NCBI GenBank assembly: GCA_902763655.1
Contig: CACWSW010000011.1
Span: 1 to 32,305 of the forward strand
DNA: 32,305 nt
Origin: an uncultured bacterium
GTDB taxonomy: Bacteria; Verrucomicrobiota; Kiritimatiellia; RFP12; UBA1067
Direction of reading: 5' to 3'
Of this stretch, positions 3,625 through 26,876 are shown one piece after another (within the stretch, counting starts at the first letter, position 1; every line of letters begins with the position of its first letter). The notes below the pieces were generated by a model that saw only the letters and a program-made list of their open reading frames with translations, was not told the origin of the DNA and ran no database searches. A program made the position numbers and the translations under genes.

Positions 3625-3692
3625 AGGACAAAGGACAGAGGACAGAGGACAAAGGATAAAACCTCTGTCCATTGTCTTTTGTCCTTTGTCCT
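3625..3692. repeat. Inverted word repeat (GGACAAA/GGACAGA) between rodA and rng
   Basis: The left arm 3625-3655 repeats AGGACAAAGGACAGAGGAC-like words. The right arm 3662-3692 is its reverse complement at 26 of 31 positions by hand count; the outer 12 bases pair perfectly. The loop is 6 bases. It starts a few bases after the rodA stop and ends 38 bases before the rng start codon, so on the transcript it is a long hairpin in the rng leader. There is no T-run behind it, so it is not a standard intrinsic terminator. Confidence 0.8.
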
Positions 3693-9950: not shown

Positions 9951-10082
9951 GGAAACAACAGAAACAACTTGTAAAAACAACATCTTCTTTCTCGCCGCGT
10001 AACCGCGCGGCGCTTTTGAAACCGGGCGCAGTTGCGCCCAGATAACAAAAGTTGTTTTTACAAGTTGTCATGGTTGTTTCCA
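9951..10082. repeat. 132-base nested palindrome downstream of signal peptidase
   Basis: Outer arms 9951-9959 and 10074-10082 (GGAAACAAC / GTTGTTTCC) and inner arms 9964-9981 and 10051-10068 (18 of 18 complementary). Inside are two GC-rich hairpins: CGCCGCG/CGCGGCG (9993-9999 with 10006-10012) and GGGCGCA/TGCGCCC (10024-10030 with 10033-10039). The whole can fold as a stem carrying two hairpin heads. It starts four bases after the signal peptidase stop and may act as a 3' stabiliser or terminator, or be a small non-coding mobile element. Confidence 0.75.
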
Positions 10083-11404: not shown

Positions 11405-13660
11405 TTAGCGTGGAGAGGACGACATCTCGAACACGAGCTCGCCGCCGGCCATGATGTCGGCATGCTTCAGGATGAACGAGCCCAACGGCTTGCCGTTCAG
11501 CGTCACGGACTTCACGTACTTGTTCTCCTTCGAGAAGTTCTTCGCGACGATGGTGAACGTGCGGTCACGCGGGACGCGTGACCCTACCGTCTTTGCGGTC
11601 GCAACAAGTTGCGACCCTCCCGCCGCCCCCCCGTTCCCCATTCCCCGTTCCCCGTTCCCCAAGCGAAGCGCCACCTTCGGCACCTGCGGCGCGCCGATGA
11701 CGTAGTCGCCGCCGCACGGGTTGAACGGATAGAAGCCCATCGCGCTGAACACGTACCACGCGCTCATCTGCCCGCAGTCGTCGTTGCCGCAGAGGCCGTC
11801 CGGCTTCGGCAGGTAGAACTTGTCGAACACTTCGCGCACAACCTCGGCCGTGCGGTCGGGACGGCCAGCGAACTGATAGAAGTAGGCCACATGGTGGCTA
11901 GGCTCGTTGCCGTGCGCGTACTGCCCGATGAGGCCCGTCACGTCCAGCACGAATCCCGCGCCCTCCGTCTTTTGCGGCTGCGTGAAAAGGGAATCGAGCT
12001 TCTTCACGAACTCATCTCTGCCGCCCATCGCGGCGATGAAGCCCATTGGATCCTGCATCACGTGCCACGTGTACTGGAAGGCGTTTCCCTCGGTGAAGTC
12101 GTTGGCCGTGCCGGCGCCGTGCCCGAGCCTGAACGGGTCGAACGGATCGCGCCAGTTGCCCTTCGTGTCGCGCCCGCGCACGAAGCCGATCGTGCGATCG
12201 AGCACGTTGGACCAGTTGCCGGCGCGCTTCGAGAAGAACGCCGCGTCCTCCGTCTTGCCGAGCGCGGCGGCGAACTGCGCCGCGCACCAGTCGTCGTAGG
12301 CGCACTCCAACGTGCGCGAAACGCTCTCGCCCTTGATCTCGTCGAACGGATAGTAGCCGTACTTGTCGAGCAGGTCCCAGCGCTCCTTGCGGCGGTGGTC
12401 GTGCTTGACGGTGAGCGAGTCCTTCACCTGCGCGTAGGCCGCCTCCCAATCGACGGTCGCGCAGGAGCGCGACCCTCCCGCATGGGACTTGAGGAACCAG
12501 TCGACGATCGCGGGGACCGAGTGCGTGCCGATCATGCACTGGTTGTCCTTGCCCCAGAGCGTCCACACTGGCAGGAATCCCGTGCGGCGCCCCTGCTCGA
12601 GCATGGAGTTGACGAACCCGTCCACCTGCTCCGGCACGAGGATCGTGTAGAGCGGATGCGCGGCGCGGAACGTGTCCCAGCACGAGAACGTGGAGTGGAA
12701 CGGCGTCGCGCCGACGTCCGCCAGGTTGTTCGGCTGGATGTAGAGGTGGTAGAGCGCGGTGTAGAAGCTCGTCTTCTGCGCGGCGTCGCCTCCCACGGCC
12801 ACGCGGCCCAGCACCTTGTTCCACGCGGCCGTCGCCTTCGCGCGAACGTCCGCGAAATCCCACGAGGGAATCTCGACGGTGAGGTTCTTCCACGCGGACT
12901 CCACGCCGTTCTCGGCGGAGAGCCCGACCTTCACCATGAGCGTGCCGCCCTCAGGCACGTCGAACGTGAACACGTAGCGCGGCGCCTTCTCCGCGGGATG
13001 GCGCGGCGGAAGCTTGGTGACGGACGCGAACGGCCGGTCGAACTGCACGGCGAACGCGTATGTGCGATCCACCCAGCATCGGCGGCGAACCGTTCCTGCG
13101 ATGCCCGTCCGGCCGTCCAGGCGCACGTCGCTCGCGAGGATCTGCTTGAACGCGTCGCCGCCGATGCCGTACTGGCAGTCGACGAGGAGCTTGGCTGAGC
13201 CGCCCTTTCCGTAGACGAAGCGGTAGATGGACGCGTGGTGCGTCGCCGTCACCTCGGCCTGCACGCCGAAGTCGTCGAGCGTGACGGCGTAGTAGCCGGG
13301 CTTCGCGGTCTCGGTCTCTTTCCTGAACACGCTGCGGAAATCGTTCGTGCCGCCGGTTCCGGTGAACGGCTGGAGCCGCACGTCGCCGAGGTCGGGCACG
13401 CCCGTCCCGCTGATGTGCGTCTGGGAGAAGCCCATGATCGACGGATCCTCGTAGCGGTAGCCTCCGCAGTAGTTCCATCCCTTGTTGCCGGTGTCCGCAC
13501 CGGCCTGCACGAGGCCGAACGGGACGCACGCCGCCGGCGTGCAGTGGCCGTTGTCTGTGCATCCGATGAACGGGTTCACCCAGTCGGCCGGCGTCTCCTG
13601 CGCCATGCCGGCAAGGCCCAGCGCGAACGCCGCCAGAATTCCGATTCCGATCTGCTTCAT
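11405..13660 (-). CDS. GH92 family alpha-mannosidase, secreted
   Basis: 751 residues. Signal peptide MKQIGIGILAAFALGLAGMAQ, so periplasmic or outer surface. Family landmarks in order: TDNGHCTPAACVPFGLVQAG, GYRYEDPSIMGFSQTHISGTG, TFSCWDTFRAAHPLYTI, EGNAFQYTWHVMQDPMGF, HGNEPSHHVAYFYQFAGRP, GNDDCGQMSAWYVFSAMGFYPFNP and YVIGAPQVPKV. GH92 enzymes are calcium-dependent exo-alpha-mannosidases acting on N-glycans and similar mannosides; linkage preference cannot be predicted here. I start at 13660 (behind AAAGGAAC); the open frame to 13765 only translates an inverted repeat. Residues about 671-699 are a 29-residue insertion of repeat DNA between LRLGNG and RTFTIVAKN, which are adjacent in a normal family member. 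A second small repeat (AGGSRSCAT) is coded at 12455-12481. Confidence 0.93.
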   Translation of the reverse strand: MKQIGIGILAAFALGLAGMAQETPADWVNPFIGCTDNGHCTPAACVPFGLVQAGADTGNKGWNYCGGYRYEDPSIMGFSQTHISGTGVPDLGDVRLQPFTGTGGTNDFRSVFRKETETAKPGYYAVTLDDFGVQAEVTATHHASIYRFVYGKGGSAKLLVDCQYGIGGDAFKQILASDVRLDGRTGIAGTVRRRCWVDRTYAFAVQFDRPFASVTKLPPRHPAEKAPRYVFTFDVPEGGTLMVKVGLSAENGVESAWKNLTVEIPSWDFADVRAKATAAWNKVLGRVAVGGDAAQKTSFYTALYHLYIQPNNLADVGATPFHSTFSCWDTFRAAHPLYTILVPEQVDGFVNSMLEQGRRTGFLPVWTLWGKDNQCMIGTHSVPAIVDWFLKSHAGGSRSCATVDWEAAYAQVKDSLTVKHDHRRKERWDLLDKYGYYPFDEIKGESVSRTLECAYDDWCAAQFAAALGKTEDAAFFSKRAGNWSNVLDRTIGFVRGRDTKGNWRDPFDPFRLGHGAGTANDFTEGNAFQYTWHVMQDPMGFIAAMGGRDEFVKKLDSLFTQPQKTEGAGFVLDVTGLIGQYAHGNEPSHHVAYFYQFAGRPDRTAEVVREVFDKFYLPKPDGLCGNDDCGQMSAWYVFSAMGFYPFNPCGGDYVIGAPQVPKVALRLGNGERGMGNGGAAGGSQLVATAKTVGSRVPRDRTFTIVAKNFSKENKYVKSVTLNGKPLGSFILKHADIMAGGELVFEMSSSPR
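11563..11650. repeat. Composite repeat inserted in frame in the GH92 gene
   Basis: Three modules in a row: palindrome GGTCACGCG-GGA-CGCGTGACC (11563-11583), palindrome GGTCGCAAC-AA-GTTGCGACC (11597-11616) followed by CTCCCGCC, and the word repeat GTTCCCCATTCCCC (about 11631-11660). Together they match an extra 29 residues in an otherwise conserved C-terminal region, with the frame kept. Confidence 0.75.
12455..12481. repeat. GGTCGC palindrome with CTCCCGC flank, second copy in GH92 gene
   Basis: GGTCGCGC-AGGA-GCGCGACC followed by CTCCCGC. It has the same outer arms and flank as the copy at 11597-11623, but the inner arm bases differ on both sides so that pairing is kept. It is read in frame as AGGSRSCAT. 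Confidence 0.65.
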
Positions 13661-16014: not shown

Positions 16015-16554
16015 ATGGAACTGACAGACACGCAGAGAGAAGCGGTCGCAAGCTGGTTCGCAGACGGCGCTTCCCTAGACGAGATCCAGAAAAGGATCAA
16101 GAGCGAATTCGGCGTCCATTTGACCTACCTCGACGTGCGCCTGCTGGTGGCGGAGCTGCCGCAGCCGGAGGAGACTGAGGCTGGAGGGAGGGAGGACAAG
16201 ACCAACAAGACACCCAAGACTCCCAGGACAGAGCCTCTAGGAATGGACAGCGGGACTGAGGAGCCGCTGGGAGTGGACGATGGGAGTGGGGAACCGATAG
16301 ATGAGGCGCAAGATAGCAATGAGGCGCAGGCTGTGTCTGCGCCTACGGTCACCATCGATGCGTTAATGCTCCCAGGCACAATCGCCTCTGGCGACGTCAC
16401 CTTCAGCGATAGCAAGACAGGCAAGTGGTATCTCGACCAGATGGGCCGACTCGGCCTCGGCAATCTGCCAGAAGGCTACCGCCCATCGCCCACAGACGCC
16501 GCCCTTTTCCAGCAGCAGCTGATGGGCCTTCTACAGGCTAGAGGATTGTGCTGA
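16015..16554 (+). CDS. Uncharacterised acidic protein
   Basis: 179 residues, no named domain recognised. The N-terminal about 45 residues (LTDTQREAVASWFADGASLDEIQKRIKSEF) look helical and resemble a small helix-turn-helix-like fold. Residues about 50-105 are acidic, Pro/Thr-rich and probably disordered. The C-terminal about 70 residues (VTIDALMLPGTIASGDVTFSD, then GKWYLDQMGRLGL and a closing helix) look folded and have the feel of a conserved domain. There is no signal peptide or membrane segment, so it is cytoplasmic. It follows the pilin-like gene by 20 bases; the ribosome-binding site (AAGGACGG, distant) is poor. Its stop codon is part of the inverted repeat below. Confidence 0.72.
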   Translation: MELTDTQREAVASWFADGASLDEIQKRIKSEFGVHLTYLDVRLLVAELPQPEETEAGGREDKTNKTPKTPRTEPLGMDSGTEEPLGVDDGSGEPIDEAQDSNEAQAVSAPTVTIDALMLPGTIASGDVTFSDSKTGKWYLDQMGRLGLGNLPEGYRPSPTDAALFQQQLMGLLQARGLC

Positions 16555-16625
16555 TTGAAGATTGTAGATTGAAGATTGTAGATTTGAATCCTCAATCCTC
16601 AATCTTCAATCCTCAATCCTCAATC
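16553..16625. terminator. Inverted word repeat covering the stop codons of two convergent genes
   Basis: Arms 16553-16584 and 16594-16625 built of GATTGAAG/GATTGTAG words; 27 of 32 positions pair by hand count, loop 9 bases. The left arm begins inside the TGA of the plus-strand gene and the right arm contains the TGA of the minus-strand gene. The position suits a two-way transcription barrier; no clear T-run follows the stem. Confidence 0.6.
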
Positions 16626-20028: not shown

Positions 20029-20607
20029 TCAGTTGTCCGCCGGCCGGCGGTTGAAGTTCGGGAAGGCGACATACGACGTCAGCTGGTCGGATCTGTCCGA
20101 TTCCGAAGAAATCGGCTTGCCCTCCTTGATGGTCACGTAATAGGGACGCCCCCACGGGTCGCGGATCTCTCCCCCCTTGATCGAGGCGTTGTACAGCACG
20201 GGCACCTTCTGCCCGTTGACCGTCACGTCGCCGAGGATGAACGCCATGTTGGCCTCGGTGGCCGGCGTGTTGTTGTAGTTCGGCAACTTGTAGTCGTCGC
20301 CGAAATGCTCGTATGCGAGAATGGCGTTCGTCATCTCCTGAGCCTCGGCCGTGGCCTGCGCGATCTTCGCCCGGCGCTGCGCAGAGGCGACGGACGATGT
20401 GACCGCTCCCGCCAGAAGCATCAGCATGGCGATGACCACCAGCAGCTCGACAAGCGTGAATCCCCTTCGGGGATGTGAAGGGTGAAAGGTGAAAGGTGAA
20501 GGGGGAAGGGTGAAGGGTGAAAGGTGGCGGGAAGCTGGTTGACGATTGTCGGCCACAGCATTTCGCATGATACGAGAGAACAGATTGTCGGCTTTAAGGG
20601 TTATCAT
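20029..20607 (-). CDS. GspG/H-like pseudopilin, cassette D type, with repeat-encoded leader
   Basis: 192 residues from the ATG at 20607. The leader of about 49 residues (MITLKADNLFSRIMRNAVAD, then NRQPASRHLSPFTLPPSPFT) ends in HPRRG before the cleavage site; the mature part begins FTLVELLVVIAMLMLLAGAVTS with Glu at +5. The soluble part has an alpha-helix with AQRRAKIAQATAEAQEMTNAI and a short beta region ending DPWGRPYYVTI, which resembles the GspG C-terminal pattern. The leader is far longer than the usual 6-15 residues and is encoded by the repeat element at 20474-20635. A start closer to the cleavage site cannot be excluded, but the ATG has GGTGA words upstream and the leader matches two others in frame. 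Confidence 0.83.
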   Translation of the reverse strand: MITLKADNLFSRIMRNAVADNRQPASRHLSPFTLPPSPFTFHPSHPRRGFTLVELLVVIAMLMLLAGAVTSSVASAQRRAKIAQATAEAQEMTNAILAYEHFGDDYKLPNYNNTPATEANMAFILGDVTVNGQKVPVLYNASIKGGEIRDPWGRPYYVTIKEGKPISSESDRSDQLTSYVAFPNFNRRPADN

Positions 20608-20635
20608 CTTTCACCATTCACCTTTCACCATTCAC
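20474..20635 (-). repeat. Leader element, copy 1
   Basis: One arm has GGTGAAAGGTGAA-type words (20474-20528 on plus strand), then a core GGTTGACGATTGTCGG, then the start codon region, then TTTCACCATTCACC words (20608-20635). In the gene sense the order is ribosome-binding words, ATG, core, and reverse-complement words coding SPFTLPPSPFTFHPS. It fills the gap from the stop of the upstream gene into the coding sequence up to the RRG cleavage site. Confidence 0.8.
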
Positions 20636-21147
20636 TATTCGAACACCAACGGCATCGTGTTGATGTCATCGGCTGTGTTCTGCCTGCCGTCCGGCCCCCA
20701 TGAAAGGACCCCCACGATGTGCGTGTTGCCACCGTCAGACCTGAGCTGCATCTTCTTGCCGCCAACCTCCTCCCACGCCTGCGGCACGGACGACCCGTTG
20801 CTGCCCTGCGAGTCCCATTCCGGCAGGTTAAAGGGGAACTTGCCAGACGGGTATATCTCCACCGCTCTGTGGCGCGGCTTGCCGTTTCTATCCCACGCGC
20901 CAAGCGTCCGCCCGGTATGGGACGGGTTCGCAGTGTCCACGCGCGGCAAGGCATTGTCCGCAAGATACTGCGCGTACGAAAGCTTACGGCGCGCATGGCC
21001 CATCATCGCGTTGCTGGCCCGCCCGGTGCGCCAAGCGATGGCCGAGGAGTTGAACACCATCGTGAGGACGGTCATCAGCATCCCCAGCAAAAGCGACGCC
21101 ACGAGGATCTCGATCAGCGTAAAGCCGTATTTAAGTTTGCTCTTCAC
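20635..21147 (-). CDS. GspJ-like pseudopilin, cassette C type
   Basis: 170 residues from GTG at 21147, whose GTGA overlaps the stop of the preceding gene, so the two are translationally coupled; an open frame to 21363 is read-through. Short leader (M)KSKLKYG, then FTLIEILVASLLLGMLMTVL with Glu at +5. The pattern after the helix (VFNSSAIAWRTGRASNAMMG) is like GspJ/PilW minor pseudopilins. The C-terminal half has WDRNGKPRHRAVEIYPSG and a glycine/aspartate-rich end. It is probably a low-copy component of the pseudopilus. Confidence 0.82.
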   Translation of the reverse strand: MKSKLKYGFTLIEILVASLLLGMLMTVLTMVFNSSAIAWRTGRASNAMMGHARRKLSYAQYLADNALPRVDTANPSHTGRTLGAWDRNGKPRHRAVEIYPSGKFPFNLPEWDSQGSNGSSVPQAWEEVGGKKMQLRSDGGNTHIVGVLSWGPDGRQNTADDINTMPLVFE

Positions 21148-21869
21148 TCCTTCAGCTCCTTCTGGTCGCCCTGGAAGTGGACTTCCGTGTAGAATATCGG
21201 CTGGGCGAAAAGGTCGCCGGCGCGGCGGGTCGTCCGAAGGCTGATCGCCACGCGCGAGCGGTCGTCTTCCATGCGCATCGTCGTGCCGTTGAATACCGGA
21301 ATCTGCCCCCACTGCACCACGATTGCGCATCCGAGGTCGTTGTTCTGCAGCTGCTGCGGCCATGGGGGCTTGCTGCCGTCCTTGTTAATGGAAATCAACT
21401 TGTTGAACACCTTCGACAAAGCCGTACTGTTGATCTGTTCTAGCCTCTTGGGGGCGTACGAATTCTGCGTCTTGTCGCAGTAGTCCAGCCACCCCTTCTG
21501 CAATATCGCCCCCTTGATGCCCTGCTCCCAGTCGTTCCACGTGATGTTCCGCGAAGAAAGCGTGGCGGTAAGGGTATTGAGGACGCAATCCGCCACCGCC
21601 GCCGCCTTCACGTCATCCTGCGACTGTCGGCTTTCGCGGTATGCGAGAGGATAGAGCGCCACCATCGCCAGCAGCCCGACGGCCATGATGAAGATGGCAA
21701 GATTCACCTCCATGAGGGTAAAGCCCCTTCGGGGTGGTGAAAGGTGAAAGGTGAAAGGTGAAAGGTGAAGGGACGCCGGTTGACGGTTGTCGGTTGCCGA
21801 ATGTCGCACGACGCGAGACGTGAAACGCAAGACGCGAGAAAACAGATTGTCAGTTTTAAGGCTTACCAT
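21144..21869 (-). CDS. GspI/PilV-like pseudopilin, cassette B type, with repeat-encoded leader
   Basis: 241 residues from the ATG at 21869. Leader of about 49 residues beginning MVSLKTDNLFSRVLRFTSRV and ending HLSPPRRG; mature part FTLMEVNLAIFIMAVGLLAM, with Glu at +5 and the MEVNLA variant typical of GspI/PilV-type minor pilins. The helix continues into YPLAYRESRQSQDDVKAAAVAD. Compared with the leaders of the genes at 20607 and 25500 it has extra residues in the middle (FTSRVVRH), but the frame is the same. Its stop overlaps the next start. Confidence 0.83.
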   Translation of the reverse strand: MVSLKTDNLFSRVLRFTSRVVRHSATDNRQPASLHLSPFTFHLSPPRRGFTLMEVNLAIFIMAVGLLAMVALYPLAYRESRQSQDDVKAAAVADCVLNTLTATLSSRNITWNDWEQGIKGAILQKGWLDYCDKTQNSYAPKRLEQINSTALSKVFNKLISINKDGSKPPWPQQLQNNDLGCAIVVQWGQIPVFNGTTMRMEDDRSRVAISLRTTRRAGDLFAQPIFYTEVHFQGDQKELKE

Positions 21870-21897
21870 ATTTCACCATTCACCTTTCACCATTCAT
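21734..21897 (-). repeat. Leader element, copy 2
   Basis: GGTGAAA words (21734-21770), core GGTTGACGGTTGTCGG with an extra stretch, and TTTCACCATTCACC words (21871-21897). It begins one base after the upstream gene's stop codon and reaches into the next gene up to its prepilin cleavage site (CCCCTTCGGGG codes the PRRG). Confidence 0.82.
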
Positions 21898-21898
21898 C

Positions 21899-22846
21899 CT
21901 ACTTCGCGTCGTCCTTGACATCGCCTGACGAGATGCTGCCGACTTTCCTCTTGTCGGTCGTGTAGATGTTGATCGTGCTGTCGAGGGGCATCTCGTACGT
22001 GTCGTAGTTGGCAATGTCGCTCGGACAGAACGTCAGCGCGCCTGCGGACGCGATCTTGGTTGAATTCGGGGCAGTGTTGCCATAGATGAATCCGTTCGGC
22101 AACTTTAGGGATGCGATCTCCACTCCGTAGGCGTCCCCCACCTTCCACTGGAGCTTTGGGGCGCCGCCGGCGACCCTACGCCCCCATCGCACGTTGTTTC
22201 CGTTTTCATCGGTGGCGGTACCGGAAAACTTCTTGTTGTCCGAGCCCCACTTCTTGTAGTCGTTGCAGAATTCCCGAACCTTCCTGTCGTACGCGATCAT
22301 GAACTCGTCGTCGAACTTGACCGGTTCGACAGAAGTGTACACGAATGTCCGGCAACTGTTGATGCCGTTTGCGACCTCATTGGCGAGGTCGGCCATGCGG
22401 TACAGCGGGACGCCGACATCGCTGGCGCTGTGCTGGTTGGGTTTCGTCACAGGATACGACTGGTTCCAGTCTGCAAACTCGTCCACAATGATGTCGCCGC
22501 TCAAGTAGGAAATGCGCCCAGCCATCTTGATGGCAATGGCCGTGCCGGCGCTCGACGCCACGGCCTCGCCCGGCGAGTCGGCATTCTCCGTCTGCATCTG
22601 GCGGTTGTAAAACAGCACCGCCGTCGGCGTCTGGTCGATCAGGCACACCTGCATCGCCTGGCGGATGATGGAAATCGTGTCCTGCACCGCCGCGCGGTCC
22701 GTCATTCCCCGGACTGCGGCGAAATACCCGGTCACGGAAACCGTGCCAAGCATCGCCATCAGGCCAATCACGACCATCAGCTCGACGAGCGTGAACGCCG
22801 CCTTCCCTGCCGGTCTTTCTGTTGCGTGCGCTTTCATCCTCATCAT
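21899..22846 (-). CDS. Pseudopilin-like protein of unknown role
   Basis: 315 residues. Prepilin signal with leader MMRMKAHATERPAGKAA and mature FTLVELMVVIGLMAMLGTVS; Glu at +5, Ala before the cut. The globular part is about 280 residues, longer than a major pseudopilin, with cysteines in NSCRTF, REFCNDYKKWG and LTFCPSDI that could form disulfides. No domain beyond the N-terminus is recognised. Two ATGs lie side by side at the start and a third at residue 4; none has a clear ribosome-binding site, and the preceding stop is only 4 bases away, so translation is probably coupled. Confidence 0.78.
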   Translation of the reverse strand: MMRMKAHATERPAGKAAFTLVELMVVIGLMAMLGTVSVTGYFAAVRGMTDRAAVQDTISIIRQAMQVCLIDQTPTAVLFYNRQMQTENADSPGEAVASSAGTAIAIKMAGRISYLSGDIIVDEFADWNQSYPVTKPNQHSASDVGVPLYRMADLANEVANGINSCRTFVYTSVEPVKFDDEFMIAYDRKVREFCNDYKKWGSDNKKFSGTATDENGNNVRWGRRVAGGAPKLQWKVGDAYGVEIASLKLPNGFIYGNTAPNSTKIASAGALTFCPSDIANYDTYEMPLDSTINIYTTDKRKVGSISSGDVKDDAK

Positions 22847-22850
22847 TTCG

Positions 22851-23468
22851 CTATTGTTCGACAGTTACACTGTCTGACTCTGAGTTGTACTTTATGGCGA
22901 ACCGCCGGAAGTACCCATTGTCCGGACAGGAGTAGCCGAACGTCATTTCGTTCGGCTGCGGCGCGGAGCCACGCGTGCTGCCTCCCTTGAGCTTCGCCAC
23001 CCACGACTTGACCTCCTCGCCGTAGCATTTCGGCAGACCATCGTTACCCTTGGCCGCAGTTACCGACTTCCTTACGGCAGTGAAGCCGGAGACGTCCATG
23101 ACCGGATTGCCCGATGCGCTCAGGCAACGTGTCACAAGGGCGTTCATCAGGGCGTCATAGTCCTGATCTTCAAGCGTCGCGACATGCACCCCCTTGCTGC
23201 GGTATTTCGCATCGAGGCCGTTTACAGCCCAACGCTGGAGAGCCCCGTTCTTCGACCCGTTCTTGTCCGGCGGCCAAACCCCCTCCTGCTGGTAATACGT
23301 GGCGATTCCCGCCTGGAGCGTGGCGCACAACGCCTCGTTCTTGCGCGATCGCGACTTGCGGATGACCGATGTCGCCGCTGTGGACACGATGCCCACCAGC
23401 ACCGCCAGCACGGCGATGACCATCAGCATCTCGACTATCGTGAAACCTCTCTTCTTCCCAAGCTTCAT
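22851..23468 (-). CDS. GspG-like pseudopilin
   Basis: 205 residues. Leader MKLGKKRG, then FTIVEMLMVIAVLAVLVGIV with Glu at +5, and the KSRSRKNEALCATLQAGIATYYQQEGVWPP segment that recalls the alpha-spine and 'yppt' loop of major pseudopilins. The ATG at 23468 is chosen because GGAGG lies 8 bases upstream (23477-23481); a GTG five codons upstream would remove that site from the leader. It is flanked by the next gene at 4 bases. Confidence 0.84.
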   Translation of the reverse strand: MKLGKKRGFTIVEMLMVIAVLAVLVGIVSTAATSVIRKSRSRKNEALCATLQAGIATYYQQEGVWPPDKNGSKNGALQRWAVNGLDAKYRSKGVHVATLEDQDYDALMNALVTRCLSASGNPVMDVSGFTAVRKSVTAAKGNDGLPKCYGEEVKSWVAKLKGGSTRGSAPQPNEMTFGYSCPDNGYFRRFAIKYNSESDSVTVEQ

Positions 23469-23476
23469 CTTTTTTT

Positions 23477-23503
23477 CCTCCACTAACCACTAACCACTAG
23501 CAA
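23477..23503 (-). promoter_or_regulatory. Ribosome-binding site made from a GTGGTTA word repeat
   Basis: The 35-base gap reads, in gene sense, GTGGTTAGTGGTTAGTGGAGG: two GTGGTTA words and a third changed to GTGGAGG, which is the Shine-Dalgarno sequence deciding the start at 23468. Confidence 0.65.
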
Positions 23504-24184
23504 CTACTTCTTTTCCTTCGCCTTGTCCCAGCTATAGATGTCGTCGGAACGGCCTCGCTGCGCATACGGCGCAAGCACGCCATCTGCCCCTGCGCACCAT
23601 GTGATCGCCTCGGCGCGAACCTGCACATGCTGTCCGCCCACGTCCGCCTCGGTGATTCCGTCGTTATCCGTATCCACCGCGAAGTAGATTATGTGATCCT
23701 GCACCGTCCCCCCCGACGGAACCTTCGCATCGATGTTCGCATCTTCCTCTGTTCCTGTGAGGCGCTTGAGAACCGCCTCAGCCCATGGATCGACAATGCC
23801 GCAACGGCTAACGCCAATCAGCCTGTAGGTCTCTTTGCCGGAACTGTCCTTGCTCGTCTTGTAGCTGACGCTCAACAGGTTCTTCTCCGCGAATTTCCTC
23901 GCCACTTCTTTCAACATGCCCCGGCCGGTTCCGTCCCCGCCGCCGAGATTGCCGCTGATTATGCCGGGCCACGTGTTGTTGGGATTCTTCTGGCGCAGGA
24001 TCACAAGCGCCTGCGCCGCCTGCGAGACGAGTTCCGTCGCCTTGGCGCGCTGTGCCGACCTCGTCACACGCCCGAAGCCCATCATCAAGGCGCCAGAGAG
24101 GACGGCGATGATGCCAATCACCACCAGTATCTCGATCAGCGTGAAACCTCTCTTCTCTGTCTTCTGTCCTCTGTCCTTCATCAT
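23504..24184 (-). CDS. Pseudopilin-like protein with calcium-loop-like C-terminus
   Basis: 226 residues. Leader MMKDRGQKTEKRG, then FTLIEILVVIGIIAVLSGAL with Glu at +5. The segment VSQAAQALVILRQKNPNNTWPG resembles the alpha-spine and loop of GspG. IYFAVDTDNDGITEADV near residue 170 is Asp-rich (DTDNDG) as in EF-hand-like or dockerin calcium loops and as the calcium site region of GspG. The leader residues KDRGQKTEKRG are coded by GGACAGAGGACAG words, the same word as in the rodA-rng hairpin. GGAG lies 5 bases before the first ATG. Confidence 0.82.
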   Translation of the reverse strand: MMKDRGQKTEKRGFTLIEILVVIGIIAVLSGALMMGFGRVTRSAQRAKATELVSQAAQALVILRQKNPNNTWPGIISGNLGGGDGTGRGMLKEVARKFAEKNLLSVSYKTSKDSSGKETYRLIGVSRCGIVDPWAEAVLKRLTGTEEDANIDAKVPSGGTVQDHIIYFAVDTDNDGITEADVGGQHVQVRAEAITWCAGADGVLAPYAQRGRSDDIYSWDKAKEKK

Positions 24185-24188
24185 AGAC

Positions 24189-24231
24189 TCTCCAAACGTT
24201 TTAACCTTTTAACTTTTCAACCTTTCAACCT
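24189..24231 (-). repeat. Word repeat GGTTGAAA/GGTTAAAA
   Basis: In gene sense GAAGGTTGAAAGGTTGAAAA followed by GTTAAAAGGTTAAAACG fills the gap between two pseudopilin genes. The same AAAAGGTTAA word recurs at 30176-30193 and 30584-30615. Confidence 0.75.
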
Positions 24232-25500
24232 TCAATTCGCCAGATGGCTGATGTCGTCCTTGGTCCATCCGGTGATCGTCTCCTGCTCCTTCGGGCTATA
24301 TGAATCAAGGTGTTCCATCAGCCAAGGCGGAAACGTTAGGCCGTTCGGCCCCGCCGACCACAGCCTATAACTCTGATATGGCGTATCAGAGTAGTAGTAG
24401 AACTCGTGGTTCCATCCGTCCGACACCGTCATGCCGTTCAACAGATAATCGGACTTGCCGTTATACCCATTCTTGCTGATCATGTGCAGAAAGCGACAAT
24501 CTTTGCCGGTCTCGTCCGGGAGCGCGGTGTACTTTTGAGATAGCAGAAACTGCCTGTCGCCGTCGGAAGTTTCCACGCCGTAGAACTCGAGCCCACCGCT
24601 GATGATGCCATTGTTTCCATCCCGAAAATTCGGCATCCAACGCGCGCACACCGCCTGGGACGGGAGGTTGGCGACGAGGAACGACTGCTCCGCGTTGGCG
24701 CTTCCCTCCCCGTACACATACTCCTGCATCGACTCCCAAGATTCGTACTGACGGCCGGTATCGATGCGGCATGGCCGTTGGTTGTTCTTCGCCCACTGGC
24801 TATGCGGCGTGTCATACATCTCAGGGGCGCCGCCCAGCATGAAGAGGTAACGCGGAAGAAGGAACGAGAGCAGCCCGAACTGGAAGAGTTCTGCTTCATT
24901 CTCCCTGCCTATGTTAAGACCACCCACATTGCTCATAAAAGAAAAACCGTCCGTTCTCGCGGCGAGGGCATTTACCATCGTTTGCGTCTTCCCCATCAAC
25001 TTGCCGTTCACCCTGCTGTTCATGAAGAAAGGAAAGTGGACTGCGATCGGCTGCGCTCGGCAGGCGGCCTCAACCTGCTTTTTCGTCTCGTTGTCAGGGC
25101 TCGACAGACTGACCGAACTAGTATCTGACGATTTTCCCTGAACGCCATTGCCGTCCACCCTCACGTTGATGTCGCGGCTGCGATTCTGGAGCGGCACCGG
25201 CGGATAGGAGCCGTAGGCCGCGTAGTAGCCGGAAAGCGCGTTCTCGAGGCGCTGCAGCCGCGACTGTGTCAAGGACTTCTTGCGCGAGTCGCCGCCGACG
25301 CCCGCGAGGCGGAAGACGATGCCCATGAGCGTGACGATCACGACCGTCACGATCAGAAGCTCGATCAATGTGAATCCCCTTCGGTGAGATGAACGGTGAA
25401 AGGTGAAAGGTGAAAGGTGAGGGGAAGCCGGTTGACGGTTGTCGGCCACAGAATTTCGCACAACGTGAGAGAACAGATTGTAGATTTTAAGGCTTACCAT
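24232..25500 (-). CDS. Large GspG-type pseudopilin with repeat-encoded leader
   Basis: 422 residues from the ATG at 25500. Leader of about 42 residues (MVSLKIYNLFSHVVRNSVAD, then NRQPASPHLSPFTFHRSSHR) ending RG; mature FTLIELLIVTVVIVTLMGIVF with Glu at +5. Then QSRLQRLENALSGYYAAYGSYPPVPLQNRS, the alpha-spine and YPP loop of a major pseudopilin. The last third (DGWNHEFYYYSDTPYQSYRLWSAGPNG) has the 'WG.pf.Y...Y.l.S.G.DG' shape of GspG, so the middle about 250 residues are an insertion between spine and C-terminal box. It is the first pilin gene after gspF, 68 bases apart, with that gap occupied by a leader element. Confidence 0.84.
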   Translation of the reverse strand: MVSLKIYNLFSHVVRNSVADNRQPASPHLSPFTFHRSSHRRGFTLIELLIVTVVIVTLMGIVFRLAGVGGDSRKKSLTQSRLQRLENALSGYYAAYGSYPPVPLQNRSRDINVRVDGNGVQGKSSDTSSVSLSSPDNETKKQVEAACRAQPIAVHFPFFMNSRVNGKLMGKTQTMVNALAARTDGFSFMSNVGGLNIGRENEAELFQFGLLSFLLPRYLFMLGGAPEMYDTPHSQWAKNNQRPCRIDTGRQYESWESMQEYVYGEGSANAEQSFLVANLPSQAVCARWMPNFRDGNNGIISGGLEFYGVETSDGDRQFLLSQKYTALPDETGKDCRFLHMISKNGYNGKSDYLLNGMTVSDGWNHEFYYYSDTPYQSYRLWSAGPNGLTFPPWLMEHLDSYSPKEQETITGWTKDDISHLAN

Positions 25501-25564
25501 TTTTCACCATTCATCTTTCACCATTCATCTTTCACCATTCACCTTTCACCATTCACCTTTCACC
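25393..25564 (-). repeat. Leader element, copy 3
   Basis: GGTGAAA words (25393-25420), core GGTTGACGGTTGTCGG and GAGAACAGATTGTAG, then TTTCACCATTCATC/TTTCACCATTCACC words (25502-25564). The word tract upstream of the ATG is longer than in copies 1 and 2. It starts 4 bases after the gspF stop and ends at the RRG cleavage site codons. Confidence 0.82.
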
Positions 25565-25568
25565 GACA

Positions 25569-26876
25569 TCAGCCTGCCGCGCCGGAGACCTGCGAGATGA
25601 TCTTGATCATCGGCAGGAACATGGCGATGACGATCGTGCCGACGACCACGGCGAGGAAGATGATCAAAGCCGGCTCGATTGCCGCCGTCATGCCGGCGAC
25701 GGCGTTGTCCACCTCGTCGTCGTACGTGTTCGCGATGCGCGTGAGCATGTCGGGCAGCGCACCCGTCTCCTCGCCCACCTGCACCATCGACACGACCATC
25801 GGCGGGAACACGCCCGAGGAAGCCAGCGGGTCGGTCATCGACTCGCCCTCCTTCACGGCGTCGTGCACGGTCTGGATAGCCTTGCGCACAACGCGGTTGC
25901 CGGTGGTGTCGCGCACGATCACGAGCGCCTGGAGGATCGGCACGCCGGAGGAGAGCAGCGTGCCCAGCGTACGCGTGAACTGCGAGATGGCCGTCCGACG
26001 CACGAGGGTGCCGATCACCGGTATGTTTATCCTCAACTTGTCCAGCTGGTACGCGCCGAACGGCGTCTTTCCGAATACCTTGTAGATGACCACGAGCGCC
26101 GCGACGCCCGCGAATATCTGGAGGCCGTTGTGCTGCACGAACTCGGAGATGCCCATCACGAACTCGGTGATGGCAGGCAGCGACGCGCCGCCGAGGATGT
26201 CGTTGAACACCTGCTGGAACTTCGGGATCACCGTGATGAGCAGGAACGCCGTGATGCCGATGGCGGCGAAGAGGACCACTGACGGGTAGATCATCGCGCC
26301 CTTCACCTTGTTCTTGATCTTCTGCGCCTTTTCGGCGAACTCGGCCAGACGGTTCAGCACGACTTCGAGCACACCGCCCGCCTCGCCGGCCTTCACCATG
26401 TTGACGTAGAGGTTGTCGAATATCTTCGGGTAGGCAGTCAGCGCGTCGGAGAAAGTGCCGCCGCCCGCGATGTTCTCCGAGATGCCGTCAAGGCAGTCCG
26501 CCATCGCCGGCGCCATCTTCTGCTTCTTGAGCACCTCGATGCAGCGCATCAGCGGGAGCCCGGCGTTCACCAGGGTTGCGAGCTGGCGCGTGAACGACGT
26601 GAGGTCCTTTGCCTTCACCCTGCCGCGCAGGAACTTGGGCAACTTGATCTTGATGTCGATGTTGCCCTTCTTGGGAGCTTTCGCGGGAGCAGCCTTCTTG
26701 GCAGGGGTGGGCTTCTTCGCGGCAGCGCCGCCGCCACCCTTGATCTCGCCGAGAGCAGTGGGCATCAGCCCCTGCGCTCTTATGGCCGCTATGGCGCCCG
26801 ACCGGTCACCGGCCTCCACCGTACCGCGCCGTTCCTGGCCCGAGCTGTCTTTTGCGATATACTGAAATGTCGCCAT
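25569..26876 (-). CDS. Type II secretion / type IV pilus inner-membrane platform protein GspF/PilC-like
   Basis: 435 residues. N-terminal ATFQYIAKDSSGQERRGTVEA is the usual small domain, followed by an Ala/Lys/Pro-rich linker (about 48-72). Two T2SSF repeats follow: FTRQLATLVNAGLPLMRCIEVL with MVKAGEAGGVLEVVLNRLAEF, and ISQFTRTLGTLLSSGVPILQAL with MVQVGEETGALPDMLTRIA. Three membrane segments (about 200-222, 250-272, 405-428). The protein forms the rotor or platform that the GspE-type ATPase drives; no ATPase, secretin or prepilin peptidase is in the window, so they must be elsewhere. First gene of the operon, with its own promoter. Confidence 0.95.
   Translation of the reverse strand: MATFQYIAKDSSGQERRGTVEAGDRSGAIAAIRAQGLMPTALGEIKGGGGAAAKKPTPAKKAAPAKAPKKGNIDIKIKLPKFLRGRVKAKDLTSFTRQLATLVNAGLPLMRCIEVLKKQKMAPAMADCLDGISENIAGGGTFSDALTAYPKIFDNLYVNMVKAGEAGGVLEVVLNRLAEFAEKAQKIKNKVKGAMIYPSVVLFAAIGITAFLLITVIPKFQQVFNDILGGASLPAITEFVMGISEFVQHNGLQIFAGVAALVVIYKVFGKTPFGAYQLDKLRINIPVIGTLVRRTAISQFTRTLGTLLSSGVPILQALVIVRDTTGNRVVRKAIQTVHDAVKEGESMTDPLASSGVFPPMVVSMVQVGEETGALPDMLTRIANTYDDEVDNAVAGMTAAIEPALIIFLAVVVGTIVIAMFLPMIKIISQVSGAAG

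Follow-up and report, generated by a model that had tools for sequence, protein, structure and literature searches.

How do three otherwise dissimilar pseudopilin genes come to begin with nearly the same long leader? The question is raised by the window analysed here, a stretch of 32,305 nt which is a whole contig (CACWSW010000011.1) of a 4.5-Mb draft genome in 465 contigs (GCA_902763655.1, an uncultured bacterium of the Kiritimatiellia). In this window gspF (25569-26876, minus strand) is followed downstream by seven pseudopilin genes on the same strand, named g1 to g7; g1, g5 and g7 share the leader. It is probable that these leaders stem from heptamer-armed palindromes, which lie between genes, and also inside genes where the reading frame stays open, and which here supply both the start codon and a disposable leader. 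Sequence comparison reveals the structure of the palindromes, their gain, loss and exchange at species level, the need for them to be translated and their open frames in other genes.

The three open reading frames (ORFs) and their Gly(-1) codons are:

24232-25500, minus strand: pseudopilin g1 ORF, peptide start MVSLKIYNLFS
21144-21869, minus strand: pseudopilin g5 ORF, peptide start MVSLKTDNLFS
20029-20607, minus strand: pseudopilin g7 ORF, peptide start MITLKADNLFS
25375..25377, minus strand: Gly(-1) codon of g1, predicted prepilin peptidase site RRG/FTLIELL
21723..21725, minus strand: Gly(-1) codon of g5, PRRG/FTLMEV
20461..20463, minus strand: Gly(-1) codon of g7, PRRG/FTLVEL

The leaders have DNRQPAS.HLSPFT in common, end in RRG and are followed by FTL(I/M/V)E. 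By DNA alignment the shared unit is about 140 nt long; it opens just past the stop codon of the upstream gene and extends to the prepilin cleavage site. The leader DNA is 86, 83 and 79% identical in the three pairs, against 47-57% over the 150 nt with which the mature genes begin. The g5 unit has a 21-nt insertion, and the g7 copy (start at 20607) has an extra stretch of 21 nt, equal to three heptamers; the frame is intact in both. The original prediction, made from the letters of this DNA, is borne out on these points: three genes starting at 25500, 21869 and 20607 share a leader ending in RRG, their DNA is alike from the upstream stop to RRG and dissimilar in the mature parts, and the indels between copies keep the frame. 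Also borne out is its claim of a unit that supplies the start codon and is itself translated. Leaders of palindrome-bearing pseudopilins are 42-52 residues long, those of the three window genes 42-49, and in the window copies the nearest ATG, GTG or TTG lies 25-32 codons from the cleavage site; with no start within 25 codons, the TTTCACC arm, or part of the repeat, must be translated to make a prepilin.

That the three genes encode type IV pseudopilins is indicated by the presence of Gly(-1), FTLxE and a hydrophobic helix. All three match PF07963 above the cut-off and two match TIGR02532 above the cut-off; there are also partial GspG/PilV matches. Across the operon, six of the seven pseudopilins exceed the Pfam N_methyl cut-off, and the remaining one falls slightly short of it. 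The genome has two prepilin peptidase (Peptidase_A24) genes. In the g7 structure model the leader is unstructured (pLDDT about 51-72) and a confident helix begins at residue 52; a Foldseek search of this model against the PDB gave no significant match, the best being a type IV pilus (E 1.4). Variable sites in the leader core number 11, 9 and 11 at codon positions 1, 2 and 3. Since they are evenly spread, no purifying selection on leader residues is visible, and the residues seem free to drift. A frame that is kept while residues drift would fit a disposable leader, one that is cut off and tolerated.

The palindromes from which these leaders are read have the following parts:

25503..25564, minus strand: upstream arm of the g1 palindrome, runs of GGTGAAA/GGTGAAT/GATGAAT, beginning a few bases past the gspF stop
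25498..25500, minus strand: g1 ATG, in the palindrome loop
25390..25420, minus strand: downstream TTTCACC arm of g1, translated as leader HLSPFTFHRSS
21872..21896, minus strand: upstream arm of the g5 palindrome
21867..21869, minus strand: g5 ATG
21736..21769, minus strand: downstream TTTCACC arm of g5, translated as part of the leader
20610..20640, minus strand: upstream arm of the g7 palindrome
20605..20607, minus strand: g7 ATG
20475..20526, minus strand: downstream arm of g7, 21 nt longer than the g1 and g5 arms, translated

Along the gene, the order is the upstream stop codon, a run of GGTGAAA or GGTGAAT, ATGGTAAGCCTTAAAA with a core, a run of TTTCACC, CGAAGGGG(A/C) encoding RRG, and FTL.E. 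The two heptamer runs are complementary, which makes every unit a palindrome whose loop contains or adjoins the ATG; when read, the TTTCACC arm forms the second half of the leader. Because seven is not a multiple of three, a GGTGAAA run holds TGA in all three frames; the TTTCACC run holds no stop in any frame. The start codon must therefore follow the first arm, while the second arm is readable. RNA folding z-scores for g1, g5 and g7 are -5.9, -1.9 and -3.7, and those of the three equivalent units in the sister species RUG11483 range from -4.6 to -11.7. An Rfam search of the window gave no match at the gathering score.

The closest relatives of the window genome (G000) are gut and rumen Kiritimatiellae, namely RUG11483 (G003; GspF 98% identical) and UBA3624 (G007; GspF 88%). 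The operon is present in about 100 Kiritimatiellae genomes, nearly always with leaders of 4-15 residues. Leader length was surveyed in 591 operon pseudopilin ORFs from about 100 related loci, with a few genomes contributing two loci. The leader measured from the nearest start has a median of 5 residues and a 95th percentile of 15, and the long leaders are nearly all associated with heptamers. Orthologues mostly start 4-8 residues ahead of the cleavage site. The cassette (the unit of start codon and leader) is found on g1, g5 and g7 in the window genome versus g5, g6 and g7 in RUG11483. One pseudopilin of the window therefore lacks a cassette that its RUG11483 orthologue has:

20635..21147, minus strand: pseudopilin g6, leader MKSKLKYG, GTG start overlapping the g5 stop

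Between the window genome and RUG11483, mature orthologues are 85-88% identical and different genes 42-57%, and leaders are 78-88% identical irrespective of the gene. In the window g1 and g7 both lack the same 21-nt stretch; in RUG11483 g5 and g7 have a common core deletion of about 22 nt. Indels common to paralogues within each species point to duplication or conversion inside the operon. Other long leaders occur as well: those of g1 in RUG11483 and UBA3624 have self-complementary arms of the GAGTTGA type, and in RUG12478 (L188) arms of the AACCACT type on g1 and of the CTCAACC type on g2 still pair.

Heptamer repeats are not confined to this operon. Genome-wide statistics were drawn from about 0.8 Mb of window-genome contigs and 0.4 Mb of RUG11483, both picked regardless of matches, together with targeted regions around matches. 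Single heptamer runs are spread throughout the window genome, a feature that, like the inverted repeat within the unit, goes beyond the original prediction. For arrays of period 7 the density per Mb is 35 in the window genome and 92 in RUG11483, and for other periods (4 to 15) it is 0-18; the excess is weaker in the wider group. UBA3624 has heptamers of its own. Many period-7 arrays are paired inverted arms, with palindrome units of about 70-180 bp. One group of palindromes has a conserved 35-nt core with arms of the GTGCTTA type. At one orthologous site the arms on this fixed core have been exchanged as a matched pair, being AGCTTTA in one species and GTGCTTG in the other:

L086:11080-11199 (G000) and L124:14513-14859 (G003): orthologous membrane TPR proteins with a palindrome at the same site, same 35-nt core, different arms

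The RUG11483 protein (L124) carries a second insertion further on.

Several palindromes also lie within long ORFs, where they read as peptides such as EVKGERRKVKDESPFTFHPSPFT. Pfam domains cross or flank the inserts in genes for the CoaB domain (DFP), DprA, a glycosyltransferase, the LeuRS editing domain, IlvD, a PLP decarboxylase, a glycogen debranching enzyme and a PreP-like protease. The DprA linker holds an insert in two species. The CoaB site measures 93 nt in the window genome and RUG11483, compared with a loop of 42-57 nt in most insert-free relatives, and the same in-frame TGA in its insert has been lost in different ways (GACGAAA in one species, GGCGAAA in the other). In 36 in-gene GGTGAAA runs, selected for an open ORF, TGA occupies 0 of 51 in-frame slots versus 149 of 158 off-frame slots; in runs where there is no ORF, 670 of 734 slots hold TGA. 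The in-gene runs are evidently translated, as in-frame TGA has been replaced and off-frame TGA kept. A test independent of ORFs, based on variant units whose spacing, counted in units, is divisible by three, gave 37 congruent pairs of 95 against 24.9 +/- 3.2 in shuffled data; 37 was reached only as the maximum among 2000 shuffles. Another heptamer is in frame in a gene of the window itself:

11629..11660, minus strand: CCCCGTT heptamer array in a GH92 glycosidase gene, about residues 702-712, inside the Pfam catalytic domain (291-782)

Several individual inserts are of separate interest. The glycogen debranching enzyme gene of RUG11483 (L311:289-4551, G003:C130) has five in-frame GGTGAAA runs, one of them within the GDE_C domain. 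In the same genome, PgpA and SBP_bac_5 domains are found in one 724-residue ORF (L133:3547-5721, G003:C12) with a GTGCTTA-armed palindrome at their junction; this is possibly a gene fusion made by the repeat. In the window genome, an M28 peptidase and an N-acetylmuramoyl-L-alanine amidase (L112:7094-8140 and L029:267-1625) have signal-peptide-like N-termini of heptamer repeat, e.g. SPFTFHPSPFTLHLSPFIFHLPLLL. Paralogous proteins at L107, L085 and L024 (G000) have an insert at the same site ahead of PTLVSPEDG, and L107 and L085 have HZS_alpha and FGE-sulfatase domains by Pfam. At L301 (G003) there is an insert whose core resembles that of these three.

Could the hairpin instead serve translational control? 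The GGTGAAA arm would then be a ribosome-binding site, as AGGTGA pairs with the 16S tail, and would be masked by the TTTCACC arm, coupling expression to translation of the upstream gene. The arms do pair strongly, the upstream stop codon adjoins the arm, GGTGA stands 2-3 nt ahead of the ATG in the cassettes, and Shine-Dalgarno motifs are enriched before operon starts. Against this, GGTGA is weakly enriched in the operon (23 versus 12 expected), most relatives have no hairpin and use short leaders, other arm types lack a clear Shine-Dalgarno character, and the same palindromes occur between other genes and inside unrelated ones. Control of this kind is therefore an unlikely explanation of the units, if the best of the alternatives.

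Less likely still is a dedicated mobile leader cassette that itself takes part in the targeting or sorting of pseudopilins. The complete unit precedes only pseudopilins in both species, keeps the frame and ends exactly at Gly(-1); its residues drift at all codon positions, its arms are generic genome-wide repeats found inside enzymes too, and the orthologues mostly make do with leaders of 4-8 residues. The original prediction of a leader cassette thus stands in part. The unit is exchangeable, as seen from its place on g5, g6 and g7 in RUG11483 and from the indels common to paralogues, and its being a dedicated pilin leader is not supported, as palindromes occur intergenically and in unrelated genes; a pilin-specific cassette was dropped as the main explanation once the in-gene copies were found. 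More probably, the cassette is one product of a broader population of translated heptamer palindromes.

It is very improbable that the element is an untranslated intergenic repeat with misjudged gene starts. It resembles intergenic heptamer runs elsewhere, and relatives start just ahead of the cleavage site, an arrangement which the earlier note would take as a sign of an untranslated region. This arrangement is indeed seen in most relatives, but the window copies have no such start, so that untranslated status is not implied; with no in-frame ATG, GTG or TTG within 25 codons, a non-standard start would be needed, and repeats of this kind keep an open frame within essential genes. An assembly or binning artefact, to which a contig of so fragmented a draft might be open, is scarcely credible: RUG11483, which was assembled separately, has the inserts at the same sites in diverged form, and UBA3624 has related inserts.

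Some points weigh against heptamer palindromes as the source of the leaders. The evidence is at sequence level. The complete cassette is limited to one operon in two species: it was not found elsewhere in the window genome or RUG11483, and each has it at three operon pseudopilins. Cassettes with other arms may share an origin with these or may have arisen separately. The folding signal is weak in g5 (z-score -1.9) and absent in the G014 g7 and L216 cases. There is some circularity in the count of 0 in 51, the runs having been selected for an open ORF, and the ORF-free test is weaker, with z about 3.8. No target-site duplication is evident between filled and empty CoaB sites, and no transposase was identified, linkage to one not having been specifically searched; it is consequently the distribution only that points to mobility.

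For the heptamer palindromes, the following course of events may be proposed. Short hairpin elements, whose arms are runs of a heptamer and of its complement, would settle between or inside genes; in the three window pseudopilins the element would have come to sit ahead of the prepilin cleavage site and behind the upstream stop. Its GGTGAAA-type arm would stay untranslated, the ATG would follow directly in the loop, and the TTTCACC arm would be read through to Gly(-1). Prepilin peptidase presumably removes the leader, so that the frame is preserved and residues are free to drift neutrally. Copies may have moved among the operon genes by local duplication or gene conversion. We infer that spread, and the replacement of arms as matched pairs, could proceed by slippage plus hairpin template switching, or by conversion.

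The nearest known parallel is the Rickettsia palindromic elements (RPEs). Like the protein-coding palindromes of Wolbachia, these occupy intergenic sites and also lie in frame within conserved genes unrelated to one another, where they are read as an additional peptide (PMC10969869, PMC2229807). The present elements are likewise palindromic and hairpin-forming, their units of about 70-180 bp overlapping the 100-150 bp or so typical of RPEs, and they lie in frame in unrelated conserved genes, with CoaB orthologues that lack the insert. Members of an RPE family are alike in sequence over 105-150 bp; the present elements have matched pairs of interchangeable heptamer arms, variable loops and unit-by-unit removal of stops, in a different phylum. 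Because the arms are interchangeable and the loops vary, there is neither family-wide DNA similarity nor a conserved peptide; the heptamer palindromes work like an RPE but are not a member.

Other repeats share single traits. The heptameric repeats TAACTGA (Beggiatoaceae, cyanobacteria), GGGAATC (Xanthomonas) and GGGGA(C/T)T (Nostoc) are over-represented, often near start codons, and vary in 7-nt steps (PMC4679880, PMC4692102); tandem seven-base units are also over-represented here relative to other unit lengths. These repeats are described as mainly intergenic, with one or a few units per genome, and not as inverted matched arms translated as leaders or in-gene inserts (PMC4679880, PMC4692102). 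Bacterial miniature inverted-repeat transposable elements (Correia/NEMIS, ERIC, Yersinia RU-2/YPAL) are hairpin repeats with ORFs that fuse in frame, in the Yersinia case within a predicted signal peptide (PMC2229807). Their sequence is fixed within a family, and terminal inverted repeats and target-site duplications are usual, whereas the present arms are inverted but variable, and neither fixed ends nor duplications are seen. PARCEL is likewise translated palindromic DNA with signs of mobility, but has a conserved tandem protein motif of 25 residues and no heptamer arms (PMC2996958).

Type IV prepilin leaders vary in length (PMC10191384), and those of Streptococcus sanguinis pilins, called very long, span 8-18 residues (PMC6497953). 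The palindrome-derived leaders resemble such class III signal peptides in Gly(-1), FTL.E, the hydrophobic stretch and basic residues ahead of the site; they differ in being 42-52 residues encoded by repeat DNA, against the 4-15 usual in the operon. A search of the open-access literature, which was not exhaustive, found no description of translated inverted heptamer palindromes as leaders, nor any paper on tandem repeats in Kiritimatiellota. Tentatively, the elements could form a distinct kind of repeat, marked by renewal of arms as matched pairs with an own heptamer per lineage, by spread into coding sequence and by unit-by-unit removal of in-frame stops, and becoming the start region and leader of pseudopilins in several lineages and possibly of secreted enzymes.

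Rickettsia and Wolbachia are the best-known sources of translated palindromes in conserved genes; those of gut Kiritimatiellae have a different build. Their footprint of translation, the removal of only the in-frame TGA of the repeat unit, offers a ready test system for the entry of repeats into proteins. That repeat DNA can take the place of a prepilin leader and leave the mature protein unchanged bears on the origin of new N-termini, and the finding also bears on the annotation of gene starts in Kiritimatiellae genomes.

Two further heptamer palindromes lie between genes in the window:

3625..3692, strand not assigned: heptamer palindrome GGACAAA/GGACAGA
16553..16625, strand not assigned: heptamer palindrome of the GATTGAA/TTCAATC type

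The g2 leader, MMKDRGQKTEKRG, consists of GGACAGA units. Short tandem words are found between the pseudopilin genes at 24184-24238 and 23480-23499 (AACCTTTT-type octamers and CCACTAA heptamers). Finally, a 48-nt inverted repeat of another make, intergenic, is located at 9951-10081; it is 77% complementary, with a 35-nt gap.

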